Origin: Bacteroidales bacterium
GTDB taxonomy: Bacteria > Bacteroidota > Bacteroidia > Bacteroidales > UBA1715
Length of the DNA stretch: 64,000 bases
Direction: 5' to 3'
Assembly: GCA_024409235.1 (NCBI GenBank)
Contig: JAKSUA010000011.1
Span: 1-64,000 of the forward strand
Part shown: in pieces, positions 28,347 through 38,397 of the stretch
How positions within the stretch are numbered: the first letter of the stretch is position 1
Layout: each line of letters begins with the position of its first letter
Notes under the pieces: generated by a model
Told to the model about the DNA's origin: nothing
Databases searched by the model: none
The model's input: the letters and a program-made list of their open reading frames with translations, nothing else
Translations under genes and position numbers: made by a program

Positions 28347-29189
28347 TTAGCTAATAGCACCAGATAGATATTTCTTTGTGAGCTCGTGTTGTGGGTTTTC
28401 GAATACTTGTTTTGCATCGCCAACTTCAATCACTTCTCCCATGTATATAAATACTACGTAGTCAGCAATACGTAATGCTTGACGCAGTGTGTGTGTCACC
28501 ATAATAATGGAATATTGTTCCTTAAGTTTTACGAACAAGTCCTCAATCGTTTTACTAGAAACAGGGTCTAATGCGGAAGTTGCTTCATCGGCAAGAATAA
28601 ATTCTGGTTCAACGGCAAGACTACGAGCTAAGCATAAACGTTGTTGTTGTCCGATTGACAAACGAGTTGCAGGATTGCCGAGACGGTCTTTTACTTCATC
28701 CCATAAACCAACCACTTTCAAGTAATGATGCACGATTTTCTTCAATTGTCTTCGCCCTTTTAAGCCATGGATTTTGCAACCATAGGCAATATTTCCAAAA
28801 ATCGACATCGGTAGTGGAGTAGGACGTTGTGGTACTAAACCAATACGTCTTCGTAGTTCGACTAAGTCTGATTCCGAACAGTTTACAATGCTTTGGTCAC
28901 CTAATCGAATGTCTCCGCTTGTTTTAACTCCTTCGATGGAGTCGGAGAGACGGTTTAAACTTTTTAGTAGGGTAGATTTTCCACAACCAGAAGGACCAAT
29001 GATACACGTAATTTTATTAGCAGGAAGTTTTACGCATACATCTTTCAGTATTTGCGCTCCGTCAATTGAAAGATTGAAGTGGTCAACTGTTATTTCTGGA
29101 GCAACTGCAGGATGCTGGAATTTTGCATTAGGAACGAACGGTTCGTTAGTGTCTGCTGGTATAAACCAACGTAGAAATGGATTTCTCAT
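28347..29189 (-). CDS. pstB: PstB-like ABC transporter ATPase
   Basis: The 280-residue ATPase has Walker A GPSGCGKSTLL, the signature LSIGQQQRLCLARSLA and Walker B EFILADEATSALDP, all in the PstB-type order. It is about 25 residues longer than typical PstB because of an N-terminal extension (MRNPFLRWFIPADTNEP). It energises the permeases PstC and PstA encoded upstream and overlaps pstA by 4 bases. By homology the substrate is phosphate. The genes lie just downstream of cysDNH and a shared operator-like site, so sulfate or another oxyanion is also possible. Confidence 0.88.
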   Translation of the reverse strand: MRNPFLRWFIPADTNEPFVPNAKFQHPAVAPEITVDHFNLSIDGAQILKDVCVKLPANKITCIIGPSGCGKSTLLKSLNRLSDSIEGVKTSGDIRLGDQSIVNCSESDLVELRRRIGLVPQRPTPLPMSIFGNIAYGCKIHGLKGRRQLKKIVHHYLKVVGLWDEVKDRLGNPATRLSIGQQQRLCLARSLAVEPEFILADEATSALDPVSSKTIEDLFVKLKEQYSIIMVTHTLRQALRIADYVVFIYMGEVIEVGDAKQVFENPQHELTKKYLSGAIS

Positions 29190-30034
29190 TTTAGTCTGTT
29201 TTTAGAAAAATGATTAGTAATAAATCTTCCGAGTAGGCTAATAACTAATACGATAATAGTTAATACTAACGCAGCTGCGTATGCTCGGTTTTGCACTTCG
29301 ATTTGAGGTGCACTTAATTGAAAGAATATGGACAAAGGCAATGTGGCTGCCTGTTGTGTAAATGATGTTGGGATAGAATCCGAGAATCCTGCCGTAAACA
29401 TTACGCCGGCAGCGTCACCAATTGCTCGACCAACCGATAATAGAGTTGCCGTTGCTATACCAGGTGCAATTTGTCGTACAACAATGCCCAAGGTTTCTAA
29501 ACGAGTAGCGCCAAGAGAAAAAGATGCTTCGAGCAAGTCTTTGGGAAATGTCTTTGCAACTTCATCCATAGAACGAATAAATATTGGAATAATGAGCAAT
29601 GTTGTTACTATAATACCACCGAGTAGCGATGTCTTTAATCCAAGATAAATCATTAGTGTAAATGCAAATGCGCCATACACGATAGAAGGTATTCCAAATA
29701 ATACATCGAATGCCAATCGTGCTATGTAAGCGAATTTGGAAGTTTCTTTTAGAAAAACATTTAGGTAAAAAACTATAGGAATACTAATTAGTAGTCCTAT
29801 TGCCGTTGATGCAAGTACTATGTAAAGAGATCCAACGATGGCGTTTAGGAAACCGCCTTCTTTTCCGATATAGAAACCTCCGCCAGGTAATGATGTAACC
29901 ATTTCCCATGTGATGCACGAAAATCCACGACTGAAGATTGTCCAGATAATGCTGACAACGAGAATCAAAACAGCGACAATGGCTATAGCCATAAAGCTTT
30001 GAGCTATTTTCTCTTTTATTACACTTTTCTTCAT
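29186..30034 (-). CDS. pstA: PstA-like ABC transporter permease
   Basis: The 282-residue protein has six predicted membrane helices and the permease EAA-type loop near LLEASFSLGATRLETL, where it docks with the ATPase. It fits the PstA family in length and order. It lies 2 bases after pstC and overlaps pstB by 4 bases. Together with PstC it should form the inner-membrane channel of the oxyanion importer. Confidence 0.88.
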   Translation of the reverse strand: MKKSVIKEKIAQSFMAIAIVAVLILVVSIIWTIFSRGFSCITWEMVTSLPGGGFYIGKEGGFLNAIVGSLYIVLASTAIGLLISIPIVFYLNVFLKETSKFAYIARLAFDVLFGIPSIVYGAFAFTLMIYLGLKTSLLGGIIVTTLLIIPIFIRSMDEVAKTFPKDLLEASFSLGATRLETLGIVVRQIAPGIATATLLSVGRAIGDAAGVMFTAGFSDSIPTSFTQQAATLPLSIFFQLSAPQIEVQNRAYAAALVLTIIVLVISLLGRFITNHFSKNRLK

Positions 30035-30036
30035 TG

Positions 30037-30927
30037 TTATTGTTGTTTTTCAATTCGATACAAAATCACTCGTGATGTTACATTGAACAAAAGCACGACA
30101 AAAAATAGAATTAATGCGGCAAACATGAGAGCAGCTTCATATAGCGGTAGCGAAAGCATTTCCCCATAGTTGTTTGCAATTAATGCCGGTAACGGATAGC
30201 AGGCATCAAAAAGGGAATGCGGTATTTGTGGTAGATTACCGCAAACCATAAGTACTGCTATAGTTTCTCCTAATGCACGTGAGATAGCGAGAACAACAGC
30301 AGCAAAAATACCAGGCAAGGATTTTTTTGTAACAACAGATATGGCGGTTTGCCATCGAGTTGATCCTAAAGAATAAGATGCGGCACGAAGTTCGTCGGAA
30401 ACACTGCTGAATAATTCAACGAAAAGGCTAACCAATAAAGGTAGAACCATAATACTTAGCACAATTCCAGCTGCTAAAGTTGTATAGCCGGCAGAGAAAT
30501 CAACAAAATGCGGAGCCAATGTATCCGAAATCCATGGGACAATTATGAGTGTTCCCCAAACGCCATAGATAACAGATGGTAGTGAAGCCAAAATGTCTAA
30601 TGCCGGGAATACGAAACGTTTAACGATTCGATGGGCGTATTCGGTTAGGTATATTGCTGTAAGCAATGACAATGGTAATGCAATAGCGATGGCTATTAGT
30701 GTTACCCAAATTGTTCCCATAAAAAATGGAAGAAAGCCGAATTCGTTTTTAAACGGTCTCCACGATGAAGCGGTAAGCAAATCCCAAAGGGAATGTTCTG
30801 CAAAAATAGGTGCTGATTTTAGATAGAGGCCTATGCCCATTACGATAACAAGCAAAAGGGCAACAATGGTTATTGTAGCCATTATTGCACCTGTAGCTCT
30901 ATCTTTTATGATTCTTAGTTTATTCAT
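30037..30927 (-). CDS. pstC: PstC-like ABC transporter permease
   Basis: The 296-residue protein begins with a cytoplasmic helix and a first membrane segment (ATITIVALLLVIVMGIGLYL). Five more follow, with the EAA-like loop DELRAASYSLGSTRWQTA. It pairs with PstA. The gene follows the binding-protein gene after 3 bases and precedes pstA by 2, so all four ABC genes form one tight operon. Confidence 0.88.
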   Translation of the reverse strand: MNKLRIIKDRATGAIMATITIVALLLVIVMGIGLYLKSAPIFAEHSLWDLLTASSWRPFKNEFGFLPFFMGTIWVTLIAIAIALPLSLLTAIYLTEYAHRIVKRFVFPALDILASLPSVIYGVWGTLIIVPWISDTLAPHFVDFSAGYTTLAAGIVLSIMVLPLLVSLFVELFSSVSDELRAASYSLGSTRWQTAISVVTKKSLPGIFAAVVLAISRALGETIAVLMVCGNLPQIPHSLFDACYPLPALIANNYGEMLSLPLYEAALMFAALILFFVVLLFNVTSRVILYRIEKQQ

Positions 30928-30930
30928 ATA

Positions 30931-31902
30931 TTACTTTAGAATTGATAGAGATTTTTCTATTTTTTCCTGTGGAATAGCAATGTATCCAGTTGGTTCGTTT
31001 TTCTTTTGTCCTTCTGTTAATACATATTTTAGGAATGCTTTTACTACAGGATTTTCAGGGTTCCCCTTTGTTACAAGATAAAGGTCACGTGCTGGAGGCG
31101 AAGGATATTTACCTTCGGCAATTGCTTTAGTAAGTTGATCCTTTAAATCGTAGAAATTTTCGTCTGCAGAGATTTGTCCGTCGTTGTTAGAATCTATAGG
31201 CAATACAAGTATGCCGGCGTTTGGTTTGTGGCTATCGTTGTCGTATGCATAACCAATGTTGTTCAAACCTATACCATAGATATCTTTTTGTACGGCAGCT
31301 GCAACTCCAGGGTCACCGAATACTGCTGTGCCACCAAGATCTTCTTGTTTTTTGCCTAACCATTTAGCCCAAGTTTCAGCAGCTCCACAAGCGTCAGAAC
31401 GAGTATATACATGTAATGGCGTTTTATCGTCAGTACCAAGTATGTCGCCCCATGTTTTTGCTTCACCGGTAATCCAAATTTTAATAGCAGTTTCTTGACT
31501 TAAACCATGGGCAAGAATTTCTTTGATTAAAGGGTTGTTTGCGTTGATTGTTGGAACAACAGCATCTTTTGCCACAGCAAAACCAACGGCCCCTTTTTCA
31601 ATTTCTTGTGGGTAAACTTCGCGAGAAACCATTCCGAAGTCAACTACACCTGCTAATGCATCGGTCATACCTTTACCGGCACCACCTGCAGATACATCTA
31701 CTTTAACATCGGGATACAATTCTTGGAAACTATTTGCCCATTCTACAGCTAATGGATACAATGCAAATGCACCAGATAGTGATAATTCACCTGAAAGTGT
31801 TTCTCCGTTATTAGAAGACTTTTGTTCGCTACTACCGCCGCATGATACTAATGTTGCGACAGATGTTAATCCTATTAATAAATATGTTGTTATTTTTTTC
31901 AT
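30931..31902 (-). CDS. pstS: PstS-like oxyanion-binding lipoprotein
   Basis: The 323-residue protein has a lipoprotein signal ending LVSCGG (lipidated Cys21) and a two-lobed PstS-type binding domain. The motif order is that of the family, but the ligand residues are unusual. The usual Thr/Ser after the first glycine is replaced in SGAFALYPLAVEW. The G-S-G of the second loop reads SAGGAGKGM. The canonical RSDGSGT reads RSDACGAAETW. By eye, the hydroxyl groups that contact phosphate are therefore missing in all three loops. The product may bind sulfate or another oxyanion. It precedes pstC by 3 bases and follows the porin gene by 36. Confidence 0.82.
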   Translation of the reverse strand: MKKITTYLLIGLTSVATLVSCGGSSEQKSSNNGETLSGELSLSGAFALYPLAVEWANSFQELYPDVKVDVSAGGAGKGMTDALAGVVDFGMVSREVYPQEIEKGAVGFAVAKDAVVPTINANNPLIKEILAHGLSQETAIKIWITGEAKTWGDILGTDDKTPLHVYTRSDACGAAETWAKWLGKKQEDLGGTAVFGDPGVAAAVQKDIYGIGLNNIGYAYDNDSHKPNAGILVLPIDSNNDGQISADENFYDLKDQLTKAIAEGKYPSPPARDLYLVTKGNPENPVVKAFLKYVLTEGQKKNEPTGYIAIPQEKIEKSLSILK

Positions 31903-31938
31903 GGTTATATATTTTAAGAAAGATAATAGATATGTTTA

Positions 31939-32979
31939 TTAGTATTTTATTGTTGCTAAGAAATAGATTCCACTTGCATTGTCACGACCTTTGTAGTTTT
32001 GTAATGTATAGTTCAATTTTAAATTTACTGGTTTCCAAGGTGCGTAGTTAATACCAATTGTGTAGTCTTGTTCTGAGTAATCTTTGTTATCAATGTCGTC
32101 GTCAAAGTAATCAAGGCGAGCAACTGCTGTCCAATTTTTGATGAATTCATATCCTCCTGCTACATAGAAACCGCCAGAGTTTAATTCACCTGTTTTTCCG
32201 GTGATATATTCAGCACGTGCAAATCCTTTTTTAGCCTTGTATGCAACACCGCCACCATATCGTTGCAATTGCACATAGTTATCTTCGGTTTGTGCAGTGA
32301 ATTTTTGTGTGGCTTCGTCGTATGTAGGAAGAGCTCCTGCTCCCCATTGATAGTATCCTGCGATAGATAATTCTTTGAATGGATTTACAATAATACGACC
32401 TACAATATCTTTTCCTTTGTTGTTGTCGTTGGCATTTAATGTGTATCCGTTGAATATAGCTAATTCATAGTTTAACAAAGAATAGTCATCTTGTTTAAAT
32501 GCGCTTCCTAAGAATTCGAAACCTAAATCACGGCCGTTTTGATTAAATCCTGATAAATCTTGTTTACTCATTCTTGCAAGTCTTTGGACTACAAGAGAGT
32601 AATTTATGAATTCAAGTTTTGTTGGATTGTATTCCGAGTTTTCAATCGACAATGGAGATTTGAATTGTCCTAGTTTAATTCCAAATTCGTCAATTGGTTT
32701 GTAGCGGAAATATAAGTCTAGAATTTTTGGTGTCCCAGTTAATTCTACTTGTAATTTGTAGTCAGCTTTTCCTGCATCACCTTTGTAAAGATCACCCGCT
32801 AAAACCAAACGAGCACGACGTAAAAGAAATGTTGATACATCTTTTGAATAATTGTAACCTGTTTGTAGAAATCCTGAAGGAGTTACTAATGATTGTTTTA
32901 CTTCTGTAACAGGCTCTATTTGAGCAAGTAATGTTGCAGAAAGTAAAGACATACATAATATGATAGATAATCGTTTCAT
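31939..32979 (-). CDS. OprO/OprP-like outer-membrane porin
   Basis: The 346-residue protein has a signal peptide (LSIILCMSLLSATLLAQ) and many alternating strands ending in the aromatic-rich terminal strand of a barrel. It fits the phosphate-selective porin O/P family (FLRRARLVLAGDLYKGDAG near the start). It lies directly upstream of the PstSCAB-like genes, so it probably brings the same anion across the outer membrane. A 21-bp operator-like site lies 10 bases upstream of the start codon, between cysH and this gene. That ties it to sulfur regulation. Confidence 0.82.
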   Translation of the reverse strand: MKRLSIILCMSLLSATLLAQIEPVTEVKQSLVTPSGFLQTGYNYSKDVSTFLLRRARLVLAGDLYKGDAGKADYKLQVELTGTPKILDLYFRYKPIDEFGIKLGQFKSPLSIENSEYNPTKLEFINYSLVVQRLARMSKQDLSGFNQNGRDLGFEFLGSAFKQDDYSLLNYELAIFNGYTLNANDNNKGKDIVGRIIVNPFKELSIAGYYQWGAGALPTYDEATQKFTAQTEDNYVQLQRYGGGVAYKAKKGFARAEYITGKTGELNSGGFYVAGGYEFIKNWTAVARLDYFDDDIDNKDYSEQDYTIGINYAPWKPVNLKLNYTLQNYKGRDNASGIYFLATIKY

Positions 32980-32988
32980 TCGTAGGTC

Positions 32989-33009
32989 AACCTATTAATT
33001 AGGTAGGTT
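32989..33009 (-). promoter_or_regulatory. Operator-like site 2, cysH-porin junction
   Basis: The site has the form AACCTA-N9-TAGGTT, with perfect 6-base arms. It matches the sites before cysD and the Cys-rich gene exactly in arm sequence and spacing. It lies 10 bases before the porin start and 16 bases after the cysH stop. No TAnnTTTG box is visible in the gap, so bound protein might block elongation or initiation close to the start codon. Confidence 0.7.
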
Positions 33010-33025
33010 AAATGGATAAAAAAAT

Positions 33026-33721
33026 TTATTTCACATGCAATCCACATTCTCTGTGGTCAGGATCTTCCCACCACCAACGACCCGAACGAATGTCTTCGCC
33101 TGGTTCTATAGCTCTTGTACAAGGTTGACAGCCTATGCTTGGAAAGCCTTTGTCGTGTAGTTTGTTGTATGGTACACCATGGTCTTTTACATATTGTTTA
33201 ACTTCGTCTTCTGTCCAATTGATGAGAGGATTTAATTTGATGAGGTTGTTTGCTTCGTCATATTCAACCATTTGCATATCTTTTCGAGTAACGCTTTGTT
33301 GTCGGCGAAGTCCGCAAATCCAAACTTTTAATCCTTTTCTTGCTCGTGCAAGAGGTTCTAATTTTCGAATCTGACAGCAAAGATGACGATTTTCAATACT
33401 TTCGTAGAAAAGGTTAATACCATGTTCGCGCACCATTTGTTCAACCTTCTCATGGTCAGGGAAAAATACTTCGATAGCAATTTCGTATCGTGCATTTGTA
33501 CGAGCTATTAATGAGTATGTTTCAGGGAAACAACGTCCGGTGTCAAGTGTGAATATACGAGTTGATTTGTCAATATTGCAAATCATGTCGGTTAACACTT
33601 GGTCTTCGTAGCTTAAACTGGAAGAGAGTGCAATTTCTCCTTTATATTCTCGTAGAAAATATTGCAACAACTCTTCTGCTGTTGCGTTCTCAAACTGTTT
33701 GTTAAGTGCTTCTATATCCAT
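33026..33721 (-). CDS. cysH: Assimilatory adenylyl-sulfate (APS) reductase CysH
   Basis: CysH reduces activated sulfate to sulfite. The 231-residue protein carries the iron-sulfur cysteines of the APS-using type, a Cys115-Cys116 pair and Cys198-x2-Cys201. Its catalytic C-terminal motif is RECGLH (Cys226). Enzymes that use PAPS lack the cluster cysteines, so this organism probably reduces APS directly. That fits with the absence of an APS kinase (cysC) nearby. It follows cysN by 2 bases. Electrons should come from thioredoxin. No sulfite reductase is in the window. Confidence 0.93.
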   Translation of the reverse strand: MDIEALNKQFENATAEELLQYFLREYKGEIALSSSLSYEDQVLTDMICNIDKSTRIFTLDTGRCFPETYSLIARTNARYEIAIEVFFPDHEKVEQMVREHGINLFYESIENRHLCCQIRKLEPLARARKGLKVWICGLRRQQSVTRKDMQMVEYDEANNLIKLNPLINWTEDEVKQYVKDHGVPYNKLHDKGFPSIGCQPCTRAIEPGEDIRSGRWWWEDPDHRECGLHVK

Positions 33722-33723
33722 AA

Positions 33724-34986
33724 TTATTCAATCATTCCGGCACCGAGAGTGTCGTTTGTGTCAGGGTCAACAACAATTATACTGCCTAAAACTTTGTTTG
33801 TATGATAATTCTCGAAAACTAGTGGACTTGCTGTTTTTAATTGTACAAAAGCAATGTCGTTCATTGTCAATTGAGAAATACCAGTTTGTTTTTCTTGTGA
33901 ATTGATGTCTATCTTGTAGTCGATAGATTTGAACATACCTTGAACTTCTTGTGTAGCATGACGAATGATGTAGCGTTTTCCTAATTGTAGAGGAGTTTCT
34001 CTAAACCAACAGATGTTCATTGCAATTGTTTGTCCGACTTCTGGTTCAGCAGTATCGCCTGCAACCAACACATCTCCACGGCTAATGTCGATGTCGTCTT
34101 TTAAGCAAATGTTTACCGAATCTCCTTGTGAAGCTTCTTGTAACTCTTTGTCGGATAACCATATTGAAGCAACTTCAGAGGTTTGTCCCGAAGGTAGAAC
34201 TTTAACTTTGTCTCCAACTTTCACAACACCGCTGGCAATACGTCCTGCGTAACCACGGAAATCAGCAAACTTATCGGAGATAGGGCGGATAACATATTGT
34301 ACAGCCATTCTAAAAGGATCGGTTGAATCAACGTTGATATTGACAGTTTCAAGGAATTCCAATAATGGTTTTCCTGTGTACCATGGAGTTTGAGTTGACG
34401 CATTCACTACATTGTCGCCGTTTTTCGCTGAAATAGGAATAAAATCAACTTTTCCTATAGGAAGATTTGCAGACATTGCTTTGTAGTCTGCAACAATTTT
34501 ATCGAAAACTTCTTGTGAGAAATCAACAAGGTCCATTTTGTTTACACATACTACAATTTGTTTTATTGCTAACAATGCAGCTACATACGAGTGACGTATA
34601 GTTTGTTCCATAACGCCGTGGCGAGCATCAATCAAAATAACTGCTAAATCAGCAGTTGATGCGCCTGTAACCATGTTTCGAGTATATTCAATATGTCCGG
34701 GAGTATCGGCAATAATGAATTTTCGTTTTGGCGTTGCGAAATAACGATATGCAACGTCAATGGTAATACCTTGCTCACGTTCTGCTCGTAAGCCATCGGT
34801 TAATAATGCAAGGTTTACTTCTTCATTACCTCTACTTTTTGATGCTGTTTCAACAGCTTCCAATTGATCTTCGAAAATCGATTTGCTGTCATAAAGCAAA
34901 CGACCAATTAATGTACTTTTTCCGTCGTCAACGCTTCCTGCTGTTGTAAAGCGAAGAAGCTGCATATCTAAATATCCGTTATTCAT
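33724..34986 (-). CDS. cysN: Sulfate adenylyltransferase large subunit CysN (GTPase)
   Basis: CysN is the GTPase subunit of ATP sulfurylase. GTP hydrolysis drives formation of APS from sulfate and ATP by CysD. The 420-residue protein has the elongation-factor G motifs: GSVDDGKSTLIGRLLYD (G1), DTPGHIEYTRNM (G3) and NKMD (G4), followed by EF-Tu-like beta domains. It has no fused APS-kinase domain. It lies 12 bases after cysD and 2 before cysH, forming a compact sulfate-activation operon. Confidence 0.95.
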   Translation of the reverse strand: MNNGYLDMQLLRFTTAGSVDDGKSTLIGRLLYDSKSIFEDQLEAVETASKSRGNEEVNLALLTDGLRAEREQGITIDVAYRYFATPKRKFIIADTPGHIEYTRNMVTGASTADLAVILIDARHGVMEQTIRHSYVAALLAIKQIVVCVNKMDLVDFSQEVFDKIVADYKAMSANLPIGKVDFIPISAKNGDNVVNASTQTPWYTGKPLLEFLETVNINVDSTDPFRMAVQYVIRPISDKFADFRGYAGRIASGVVKVGDKVKVLPSGQTSEVASIWLSDKELQEASQGDSVNICLKDDIDISRGDVLVAGDTAEPEVGQTIAMNICWFRETPLQLGKRYIIRHATQEVQGMFKSIDYKIDINSQEKQTGISQLTMNDIAFVQLKTASPLVFENYHTNKVLGSIIVVDPDTNDTLGAGMIE

Positions 34987-34998
34987 TTCTACAAAAGT

Positions 34999-35901
34999 TT
35001 AAAAGTAACCTAATTTCTTTCTGTCTTCCATTGCAGTTTCCGAACGTTTGTCGTCGGCTCTGCCGCCTCGTTCTGTGACACGTGTTGCTGCAATTTCTGC
35101 GATAATATCCTCAAGATTATGTGCTGTTGAAAGTGTAAGACCTGTACATGTAATGTCACCAATTGTGCGGCAACGAACGTCTTTTTCTACAACAACTTCT
35201 TCAGGACGACGTTTTATGCAATCTTCGGCTGCAAGCCATTGACCATCGCGTTGGAATACCTTGCGAGTATGCGTATAGTATAGACTTGGAAGTTCAATAC
35301 CTTCTTGCAAAATGTATTGCCAAACATCCATTTCTGTCCAGTTGCTGATAGGGAACACGCGAAAATGTTCGCCAATATTTTTGCGGCCGTTAAATATGTT
35401 CCACAATTCAGGTCTTTGATTCTTTGGATTCCATTGACCGAAATCATCTCGGTGCGAGAATATACGTTCTTTTGCACGAGCTTTTTCTTCGTCACGGCGA
35501 GCACCACCTATGCAAGCATCGAATTTGTATTTTTCAATAGTGTCGAGTAGAGTGGTTGTTTGCAATGAGTTTCGGCTTGCATTAAATCCGCTTTCTTCTT
35601 TTACTCTACCAGTATCTATAGATTCTTGGACCGAACCAACAATTAGTTCTGCACCAAGTTTCTTTACTAATTCGTCACGATATTGAATAGTTTCCACAAA
35701 ATTATGACCTGTATCAATATGTACAAGAGGAAAGGGAAGTTTTGCCGGATAGAAAGCTTTGTATGCTAAGTGAGTTACTACAATAGAATCTTTTCCTCCA
35801 GAGAAAAGAATCGCTGGTTTTTCGAACTGGGCAGCTACTTCTCGTAGGATGTAGATGGACTCTGCTTCCAATTCTTTTAGATGGGTTTTTGTTTGTTCCA
35901 T
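34999..35901 (-). CDS. cysD: Sulfate adenylyltransferase small subunit CysD
   Basis: CysD is the catalytic subunit of ATP sulfurylase and belongs to the ATP-pyrophosphatase family. The P-loop FSGGKDSIVVTHLA and the residues following VHIDTGHNF are intact, and the 300-residue length is typical. I chose the ATG at 35901. A longer frame from a TTG at 35928 would overlap the promoter -7 box (35926-35933) and adds 9 non-conserved residues. It is the first gene of the minus-strand sulfur operon and is preceded by a strong operator-like site. Confidence 0.95.
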   Translation of the reverse strand: MEQTKTHLKELEAESIYILREVAAQFEKPAILFSGGKDSIVVTHLAYKAFYPAKLPFPLVHIDTGHNFVETIQYRDELVKKLGAELIVGSVQESIDTGRVKEESGFNASRNSLQTTTLLDTIEKYKFDACIGGARRDEEKARAKERIFSHRDDFGQWNPKNQRPELWNIFNGRKNIGEHFRVFPISNWTEMDVWQYILQEGIELPSLYYTHTRKVFQRDGQWLAAEDCIKRRPEEVVVEKDVRCRTIGDITCTGLTLSTAHNLEDIIAEIAATRVTERGGRADDKRSETAMEDRKKLGYF

Positions 35902-35949: not shown

Positions 35950-35970
35950 AACCTACTATGTTGATAGGTT
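35950..35970 (-). promoter_or_regulatory. Operator-like site 1 upstream of cysD
   Basis: This 21-bp inverted repeat has the form AACCTA-N9-TAGGTT and identical arms to sites 2 and 3. It overlaps the -33 region of the cysD promoter, the position expected of a repressor site. The likely binder is the Rrf2-family protein encoded at 36969-37406; this is inference from co-occurrence. Confidence 0.75.
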
Positions 35971-35998: not shown

Positions 35999-36069
35999 AA
36001 ATTATCTATCGTCGTTGATCCCCGGAAATATATTTGATTTAATAATTGTATCTCATTTTTAATAGAGAT

Positions 36070-36531
36070 ATGGCAATAGAAATAGTTGATTATAAACCGC
36101 AATATCTTGATGATTATTGTAGATTGACAGAAGAATGGATTACCAAACATTGGGTAATGGAGTCTCGTGACTACGAAGAACTTCGTGAAGTTCAATCTAT
36201 GATTGACGAGGGCGGTTTTTTGCTAATTGCGTTGTTGGATGGAAAAGCTGTCGGTACTTGTGCTATGATTCCCATGGATGGCGAGAAATATGATTTTGAA
36301 TTAGCAAAATTTTGTGTTTCTCCATGTGCACAGGGCTTAGGTTTGGGTTCCAAATTGATTCGTGCAGCTTTGCAACGTGCTAAAGAGATGGGGAAAAATA
36401 GAATCTATTTAGAAACAAATCATTTATGTGAAACTGCTATTCATTTATATGAAAAGTTAGGTTTTTCTCATTTAGAAGGACATAGTAAGGTTTTTGATAG
36501 GGGAGATGTTTTGATGGCTGTGATTCTATGA
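36070..36531 (+). CDS. GNAT-family N-acetyltransferase
   Basis: The 153-residue protein has the GNAT fold, with the acetyl-CoA pyrophosphate loop in VSPCAQGLGLGSKLI (near residue 90) and the C-terminal YEKLGF motif. The substrate is unknown. The ATG at 36070 is preferred over an upstream TTG at 36046 that lies just after the -7 box TATATTTG (36029-36036). It is transcribed divergently from cysD. The shared control region holds an operator-like site and a palindrome, so the gene may respond to the same signal. Confidence 0.8.
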   Translation: MAIEIVDYKPQYLDDYCRLTEEWITKHWVMESRDYEELREVQSMIDEGGFLLIALLDGKAVGTCAMIPMDGEKYDFELAKFCVSPCAQGLGLGSKLIRAALQRAKEMGKNRIYLETNHLCETAIHLYEKLGFSHLEGHSKVFDRGDVLMAVIL

Positions 36532-36597: not shown

Positions 36598-36638
36598 AAC
36601 CTATTGATTTGGTAGGTTTAATGGTTTTGTTATTTTTG
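36598..36638 (+). promoter_or_regulatory. Operator-like site 3 over the Cys-rich gene promoter
   Basis: The 21-bp AACCTA-N9-TAGGTT site (36598-36618) contains TTTG (36608-36611), which is spaced 19 bases from TATTTTTG (36631-36638). That is a full Bacteroidota promoter, TTTG-N19-TAnnTTTG, with its -33 element inside the operator. This is the clearest example here of a repressor overlapping a promoter. The start codon at 36657 lies 18 bases past the -7 box. Confidence 0.78.
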
Positions 36639-36656
36639 TAGAAAATAAAAATGGTT

Positions 36657-36914
36657 ATGAAGAAATTTTTAATTGGTTTTACTACTATTGCACTAGGTGC
36701 ATTGTTGGTAAGTGCTTGCTGTAATTGTGAAAAAGCAAAATCTTGTGAAGATAAAAAATGTTCAACTGAACAAGTACAAGGTTGTGGTTGTTGTGCTGAT
36801 TGCAATGCTTGTTGCAAGGGCGATTGTAAATGTACAGAAACATGTACTGATTCAACAGCTTGTTGTTCAAAAGAACAAAAATGTGCGTCGGATACAGCTT
36901 GTTGTAAAAAATAA
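36657..36914 (+). CDS. Small cysteine-rich lipoprotein (19 Cys)
   Basis: The 85-residue protein begins with a lipoprotein signal (FLIGFTTIALGALLVSAC, lipidated Cys21). About 65 mature residues contain 19 cysteines in CC, CxC and CxxC patterns, with many Lys, Asp and Thr. I do not recognise a family. The composition resembles metallothioneins or other metal- or thiol-binding proteins, but the lipid anchor would place it in the envelope. An in-frame ATG at 36651 is possible but leaves a very short leader. The operator-like site over its promoter ties it to the cys genes. Confidence 0.75.
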   Translation: MKKFLIGFTTIALGALLVSACCNCEKAKSCEDKKCSTEQVQGCGCCADCNACCKGDCKCTETCTDSTACCSKEQKCASDTACCKK

Positions 36915-36931: not shown

Positions 36932-36965
36932 TAAAAAAAGCTCGTAATTTCTTACGAGCTTTTTT
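36932..36965. terminator. Bidirectional terminator, Cys-rich gene / rrf2
   Basis: A perfect 14-bp stem (36933-36946 and 36951-36964) with a 4-base loop carries A-run and T-run ends. It separates the convergent Cys-rich lipoprotein gene and the Rrf2 regulator gene. Confidence 0.92.
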
Positions 36966-36968
36966 GCT

Positions 36969-37406
36969 TTATAATGATGCTCCAAAAAATCCAGCAGCTG
37001 CATCTTGTTTCATAAGGTCGGCAACTGTCATGCTATCAAAAAAATCATTGACTAAGTTATATAGCTTTTCCCACATTGGGAGTGTTCGGCAAATAGATTC
37101 TCGCTCACATTTTTTTGCATCGCAACCTAAACAGGCAACAGGAGCAAGTGATCCTTCGGTGGTTCGTAGGATTTCGCCAATAGTATATTCTTCAGGGGTT
37201 CTGTTTAAACGATAGCCGCCTCCTTTTCCGTGTGCTCCGTCAATTAGGCCACTTTTTGAAAGAGTGGTTGTTATACTTTCGAGATATTTTTGTGAAATAT
37301 CTTGACGTTCAGAAATATCTTTCAAGCGGATGTAGTCTGTTGTTCCGTGTTCTGCTAAATCTATCATAAGACGAATTGCATATCGTCCTCTTGTTGAAAT
37401 CATCAT
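36969..37406 (-). CDS. Rrf2-family transcriptional regulator with cysteine cluster
   Basis: The 145-residue protein starts with the Rrf2 winged helix: STRGRYAIRLMIDLAEH, then RLKDISERQDISQKYLESI as the recognition region and the wing HGKGGGYRL. Four cysteines follow (Cys92, 95, 100, 106). Their spacing resembles but does not equal that of IscR (92, 98, 104), so an iron-sulfur cluster or thiol sensor is likely. It could also work as a CymR-like cysteine-metabolism repressor. It follows nadA by 12 bases. An operator-like site upstream of nadA would make it autoregulated. An ATG one codon downstream is also possible. Confidence 0.88.
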   Translation of the reverse strand: MMISTRGRYAIRLMIDLAEHGTTDYIRLKDISERQDISQKYLESITTTLSKSGLIDGAHGKGGGYRLNRTPEEYTIGEILRTTEGSLAPVACLGCDAKKCERESICRTLPMWEKLYNLVNDFFDSMTVADLMKQDAAAGFFGASL

Positions 37407-37418
37407 AATAATAAAGTT

Positions 37419-38339
37419 TTAACCTAATCGTAACATTTCATCAATACTTCGTTTTGCTTGTAGTCGCAGTGCCTCGTCTAAAATAATTTCTTCACCACTT
37501 GTGCCGACAATACTGCCATAAACATCTCCCAAGGTGGTAAGTTTCATATTGTGGCATACACAGTTTTTCGAAAGAGAGTAAAATTGCTTATCTTCTCCAA
37601 TACAGTCAAATTGCAAGTGCTGCACTATACTGTTTTCTGTACCTATAATGAATTCCTTTTTGTCGCTGTTCTTCGCAAATGCAATGATTTCGGTTGTACT
37701 TCCAACAAAATTTGCTTCTTTTGTTACTGCTGGCTGACATTCGGGATGCACAAGTAATAAGGCATTAGGATGTTGTTCTCTCGCTTTTTGTACATCTTTC
37801 ACCGACATTAAAAGGTGGGTAGGGCAACCTCCTGGTACAAATTGGAATTCTTTTTCTGGTATTTGTTGTTGAACCCATGATCCTAAGTTGCAGTCCGGTA
37901 TAAATAGAATTTTGTTGTTCTGTATAGCTTTTACAACTTTAACTGCCGATGACGATGTCACACATACGTCGCAAAATGTTTTGAGTTCGGCTGTTGTGTT
38001 TATGTAGGCAACAACGGTGTGCTCTGGATATTGTTCTTTTAATTTTGTGATAAATGCAGGCGAGATTTGTTCAGCCATAGGACATCCAGCATTTGGGTTC
38101 GCTAAAAGTACTCTCTTCTGTGGTGCAAGAATTTTGACCGTCTCTGCCATAAATCGTACACCGCACATTAATATTGTATCGGCATCAGATTGTGCCGCCT
38201 TTTGACTAAGTCCAAATGAATCACCAACATAGTCGGCAATATCCCAAATATCATGGCTTTGATACGCGTGGGCAAGTATACATACGTTCTTTTCTTTCTT
38301 AATATGTAGTATTTCGTCTTGTATTTGTCTTGTGTTCAT
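37419..38339 (-). CDS. nadA: Quinolinate synthase NadA
   Basis: NadA condenses iminoaspartate with dihydroxyacetone phosphate to make quinolinate for NAD synthesis, using a [4Fe-4S] cluster. The 306-residue protein has the cluster cysteine motifs MCGVRFMAETVKIL, GGCPTHLLM and CVCHNMKLTTL in the expected order. It also has the N-terminal AHAYQSHDIWDIADYVGDS. It is a single-gene step here; nadB and nadC are not adjacent. It shares a transcript with the Rrf2 gene and is preceded by an operator-like site, perhaps because the enzyme needs an iron-sulfur cluster. Confidence 0.94.
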   Translation of the reverse strand: MNTRQIQDEILHIKKEKNVCILAHAYQSHDIWDIADYVGDSFGLSQKAAQSDADTILMCGVRFMAETVKILAPQKRVLLANPNAGCPMAEQISPAFITKLKEQYPEHTVVAYINTTAELKTFCDVCVTSSSAVKVVKAIQNNKILFIPDCNLGSWVQQQIPEKEFQFVPGGCPTHLLMSVKDVQKAREQHPNALLLVHPECQPAVTKEANFVGSTTEIIAFAKNSDKKEFIIGTENSIVQHLQFDCIGEDKQFYSLSKNCVCHNMKLTTLGDVYGSIVGTSGEEIILDEALRLQAKRSIDEMLRLG

Positions 38340-38354: not shown

Positions 38355-38397
38355 CAAATATAGCTAATTATCCTATTCCCTACCATGTTAATAGGTA
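38355..38397 (-). promoter_or_regulatory. Operator-like site 4 and promoter of nadA-rrf2
   Basis: On the minus strand the -7 box TATATTTG is at 38362-38355. The site at 38377-38397 keeps the core CCTA-N9-TAGG but has weaker outer bases than sites 1-3. It lies 14 bases upstream of the -7 box and covers the -33 region. It is the weakest of the four matches, which would suit a self-regulating gene. Confidence 0.6.

Follow-up and report, generated by a model that had tools for sequence, protein, structure and literature searches.

As a rule, proteins that assimilate sulfur are low in sulfur amino acids (PMC2940859). The presence of a cysteine-rich lipoprotein gene among the sulfur-assimilation genes of a Bacteroidales bacterium, a host represented solely by MAGs, raises the question of what its product does, and to which signal the gene responds. 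The gene lies in a contig region of 64,000 nucleotides (contig JAKSUA010000011.1, positions 1 to 64,000; hereafter the window), which forms part of a 2.6 Mb assembly estimated to represent a 98%-complete genome.

The cysteine-rich lipoprotein and its distribution

The gene (36657-36914, plus strand) comprises an ORF of 85 amino acids, with a second in-frame ATG at 36651. It translates as MKKFLIGFTTIALGALLVSA, the predicted signal peptide (residues 1-20), followed across the predicted lipoprotein cleavage site by CCNCEKAKSCEDKKCSTEQVQGCGCCADCNACCKGDCKCTETCTDSTACCSKEQKCASDTACCKK, a mature protein of 65 residues which begins at the predicted lipidated Cys21. As read from the sequence, the N-terminus (MKK-FLIGFTTIALGAL-LVSA, followed by the cysteine) carries K-K at its start, then a hydrophobic stretch and the lipobox VSAC. 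The Sec signal, lipobox and +1 cysteine of bacterial lipoproteins are all present, and argue strongly for a predicted exported lipoprotein. The residues following the lipidated cysteine (CNCEKAK), when judged by eye, lack the acidic run which serves as the surface-export signal in Bacteroidetes, and this reading suggests a location on the periplasmic face. Nineteen cysteines and ten lysines are present in the mature protein, while aromatic residues, His, Leu, Ile, Met, Arg and Pro are entirely absent. The cysteines are arranged in five CC, three CxC and several CxxC motifs, and account for 22% of the ORF including the signal peptide and 29% without it. When the window was simulated sixty times with a first-order Markov model, no ORF of at least 60 codons exceeded 15% cysteine, and the cysteine content of the ORF is thus not attributable to chance. 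The ORF, the lipobox and the cysteine count confirm the initial annotation of a predicted lipid-anchored mature protein of 65 residues with nineteen cysteines.

Upstream of the gene, an Rrf2-type operator (ACCTATTGATTTGGTAGGT; 36599-36617, plus strand), identical in the three species carrying the gene, overlaps the -33 region of the promoter. The TTTG of the -33 element (36608-36611, plus strand) falls inside this operator, as had been observed in the initial annotation, and is followed after 19 nt by a -7 element (TATTTTTG, of the form TAnnTTTG; 36631-36638, plus strand). By its spacing, this is the predicted -33/-7 promoter arrangement of the Bacteroidetes. An intrinsic terminator hairpin (36934-36965, plus strand; z = -4.2), usable by both convergent genes, follows the lipoprotein gene, which is thus a single-gene unit convergent with rrf2.

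Orthologues are found in two sister species (G001 and G006), at 96% and 99% identity, represented by one MAG from horse faeces and one UBA MAG, with all nineteen cysteines retained. Eight substitutions distinguish the gene among the three species (five synonymous and three non-synonymous), none of which alters a cysteine. The excess of synonymous changes over the neutral expectation of 23% (P = 0.02) provides modest evidence, from very close relatives, of selection on the coding sequence, and conservation of the cysteines is weakly tested by the three near-identical homologues. Searches of the four remaining congeners, other members of the family, approximately 390 genomes of the order and 395 of the phylum, as well as of plasmids, phages, viral contigs and further GTDB contigs, retrieved no copy of the lipoprotein beyond those of the sister species, with the proviso that similarity searching handles cysteine-rich, low-complexity sequences poorly and that a diverged relative could escape it. 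Cysteine-rich proteins elsewhere in the source genome were likewise sought by similarity only. No Pfam family was matched at E <= 1 and no meaningful PDB match was obtained, while the sole NCBIfam match, at the end of the signal peptide, is attributable to chance (E 0.03). The initial annotation would have been refuted by an absence of homologues with lipobox and cysteine pattern; such homologues exist, although they are confined to two closely related species. The regulon is older than the lipoprotein, which was added to it; no cysteine-rich lipoprotein was found at nineteen operator-bearing regions of the four congeners or at one of a sister species.

Several weak candidates at E 8e-4 to 0.5 were inspected and rejected. 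L004 is another small lipoprotein-like ORF, poor in cysteine, L005 lacks a cysteine-rich frame, and L016-L018 represent cysteine-rich shadow frames of other genes. The DNA pattern of the DSTACC-K motif recurs four times elsewhere in the order, in no case (0/4) within a cysteine-rich lipoprotein.

The operator, its regulon and the Rrf2 protein

Approximately twenty promoters in six species of the genus carry the operator motif, ACCTA-N9-TAGGT, over their -33 region, 13-20 nt upstream of a TAnnTTTG box. The source genome and its congeners were searched for the motif, and twenty regions around the best sites were read. As the raw count at two mismatches was not above the control, only near-perfect arms preceding genes were counted. 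Among the genes behind the operator-bearing promoters are cysD, metY-cysK, nadA, rrf2, additional cysK and cystathionine-type PLP genes, those for an outer-membrane porin together with a phosphate-type ABC system, and that for a YeiH-like transporter. Some of these genes were named on the basis of profile scans (Pfam, NCBIfam), and the remainder by sequence reading.

Within the window, the sulfate activation and reduction genes cysD, cysN and cysH (33026-35901, minus strand; cysD and cysH identified by profiles, cysN by sequence reading) are preceded by an operator at 35951-35969 (minus strand). The same motif is thus found upstream of cysDNH and the lipoprotein gene, as the initial annotation had it, but the two sites are separate. 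Further operators are located upstream of the porin, substrate-binding protein and ABC permease genes (32990-33008, minus strand) and of nadA-rrf2 (38378-38396, minus strand). The quinolinate synthase gene nadA (37419-38339, minus strand; profile matches) ends 12 nt before rrf2 (36969-37406) on the same strand. The two genes likely form one operon, and the operator preceding them likely serves in autoregulation. Predicted co-regulation of the lipoprotein with sulfur assimilation is well supported by these operators, and the regulon is a sulfur regulon rather than a metal regulon. Most of its other products are poor in cysteine (0/310 residues in CysK, 3/420 in CysN and 1/346 in the porin), which bears out the earlier remark that a cysteine-rich lipoprotein is odd in such a regulon.

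The product of rrf2 is a putative repressor of the Rrf2 family (Pfam Rrf2, 3e-36), with cysteines at positions 92, 95, 100 and 106, and is the likely regulator of the operator. Its scores do not reach the cut-off of any Rrf2 equivalog model in NCBIfam, with IscR (112.8 of 207.55 bits) and CymR (94.8 of 195 bits) being the closest. The triad Cys92-x7-Cys100-x5-Cys106 is invariant in the alignment, even in homologues with 30% identity. Three conserved cysteines characterise the Fe-S-binding Rrf2 proteins (PMC5863699), and their presence here suggests that the protein carries an Fe-S cluster. Its position and apparent autoregulation point to binding of these operators, and in the other congeners rrf2 is situated directly behind metY-cysK. 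The protein resembles the CymR, IscR and RirA class in having a three-cysteine triad and in adjoining its putative operators. Like CymR, it appears to regulate cysteine synthesis, but it differs from CymR, which lacks the triad. To our knowledge, no cysteine-rich lipoprotein forms part of the CymR or IscR regulons.

Possible functions of the lipoprotein

Judged from its sequence, there is roughly an even chance, weighed against all other readings together, that the lipoprotein is a lineage-specific, envelope-anchored, metallothionein-like buffer of soft metals or thiols which a small clade of gut Bacteroidales recruited into its sulfur-assimilation regulon. Its composition is that of the metallothioneins, including the animal proteins (approximately twenty cysteines), SmtA (PF02069) and mycobacterial MymT. 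It is likewise small, with approximately 29% cysteine in CC, CxC and CxxC motifs, rich in lysine, free of F, Y, W and H and without a predicted fold in the absence of metal. It does not, however, match the bacterial metallothionein family PF02069 or any other metallothionein family. AlphaFold, run on the single sequence without an alignment, produced no confident fold (mean pLDDT 54), as would be expected of a protein folded by metal and equally of any single sequence without an alignment. Neither VKOR nor DsbB is encoded in the 98%-complete source genome, so that envelope thiols may stay reduced, which fits metal binding over disulfides, although other oxidants of these thiols are possible.

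In the proposed mechanism, the holo form of the Rrf2 repressor would sit across the -33 box, and a shortage of cysteine or Fe-S clusters, arising from cysteine starvation or from Cu, Cd, Zn or oxidant stress which consumes thiols and clusters, would cause it to leave its operators. Its release would allow cysteine to be made through sulfate uptake, cysDNH, metY and cysK, and the lipoprotein to be made from its own single-gene promoter. The latter would then expose eighteen free thiols in a periplasm that lacks both DsbB and VKOR as oxidases, and would chelate metals or take up oxidants in the envelope in the fashion of a metallothionein. The more specific proposal, that a lipid-anchored envelope metallothionein is induced by an Fe-S-sensing Rrf2 protein together with cysteine synthesis, with one signal (thiol or cluster loss under metal stress) yielding both the ligand and its building block, is advanced tentatively.

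A precedent linking sulfur control and copper stress exists in Staphylococcus aureus, where deletion or loss of cymR derepresses the copAP copper efflux genes and raises copper sensitivity (PMC2869319). The occurrence of a cysteine-rich product among cysteine-poor ones further suggests that the regulon is also used upon thiol or Fe-S damage, and that the signal is more than simple sulfur hunger. Against a buffering function, no metal-resistance genes adjoin the lipoprotein gene and no metal-responsive regulator is present. Furthermore, since sulfur-starvation proteins are usually poor in cysteine, making the lipoprotein during true cysteine starvation would be wasteful.

Metallothioneins of the SmtA type are regulated by a metal sensor such as SmtB, whereas a sulfur-type Rrf2 operator precedes the lipoprotein gene. 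The bacterial metallothioneins that have been reviewed are cytosolic (PMC7558416), in contrast to the lipoprotein signal observed here. NosL and the exported Csp1 are exported or lipid-anchored metal binders, as the lipoprotein is predicted to be anchored in the envelope, but they are larger and pre-folded, while the lipoprotein has no predicted fold and no homology to them. Literature searches retrieved neither a lipid-anchored bacterial metallothionein nor an account of this Bacteroidales regulon. If metal binding holds true, the protein would represent a metallothionein of the cell envelope rather than the cytosol, for which no precedent was found in the library searches. The pairing of a metallothionein-like lipoprotein with a cysteine-synthesis switch, in a gut Bacteroidales bacterium and two sister species, would be unusual, and the gene constitutes a natural reporter of the signal to which such Rrf2 proteins respond in gut Bacteroidales.

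Other functions can be envisaged. The predicted envelope export, the CxxC and CC motifs and a sulfur regulon active alongside sulfide production would suit a redox or structural protein without metal, whose disulfides cross-link the envelope or which sacrificially scavenges oxidants or reactive sulfur. This is rather unlikely, given the lack of VKOR and DsbB, a host that is presumably an obligate anaerobe, and a cysteine spacing and composition of the thiolate-cluster type with no hydrophobic core. A role in holding iron or Fe-S clusters, or in metal delivery at the envelope, within an Fe-S-sensing regulon is improbable. The Fe-S-type cysteine triad of the Rrf2 protein and the inclusion of the Fe-S enzyme NadA in the regulon lend it, and the suggestion of Fe-S demand in the initial annotation, some support, but the lipoprotein matches no ferredoxin-type family, the regulon is mostly concerned with sulfur uptake and assimilation, and Fe-S loading outside the cytoplasm is unusual. 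The extreme cysteine content and the sulfur-assimilation operator would also suit a reservoir of cysteine or sulfur, or a sink for its overflow, with reduced sulfur stored in the envelope as protein and recovered by proteolysis. This finds little support and is quite improbable, as the predicted control is backwards for storage, with the operator common to uptake and synthesis genes expected to be on at sulfur scarcity, a lipidated protein of the envelope is ill suited to storage, and congeners possess the same regulon without the lipoprotein. Finally, a recent orphan ORF or a cysteine-codon-rich, attenuator-like ORF, neither producing a functional protein, would accord with the restriction to three sister species and the terminator that follows, but is very improbable in view of the full lipoprotein signal, the canonical promoter with operator, the synonymous excess and the retention of all nineteen cysteines; the attenuator was rejected, as there is no same-strand gene downstream for it to control.

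Other genes associated with the operator

The porin, PstS-like lipoprotein and PstC/PstA-like permeases encoded at 29186-32979 adjoin cysDNH and are associated with the sulfur operator in several congeneric species. This system, assembled from phosphate-type parts, is a candidate importer of sulfate or another sulfur oxyanion. The Fe-S enzyme gene nadA (37419-38339) similarly belongs to the regulon in several congeneric species, where it stands by itself or follows an MnmA-like tRNA thiolation gene, while a YeiH-like putative sulfate/sulfite exporter with the same operator is encoded at G000:C12:199908 (L030) and at L082. A second metY-cysK-rrf2 cluster is present on another contig (G000:C41:1-4000; L015, L024 and L025). 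Its Rrf2 protein shares 88% identity with the window copy, and the cluster is either paralogous or derived from a contaminating congener. Both sister species also carry an Rrf2 operator (ACCTACCGGATTGATAGGT) and a TATATTTG box upstream of a GNAT gene (36070-36531 in the window, with the upstream region at 36045-36069), and the window genome lacks the approximately 50 bp that hold these two elements. Eight of the substitutions distinguishing the window copy of the GNAT gene cluster in 36210-36246, which suggests local recombination.
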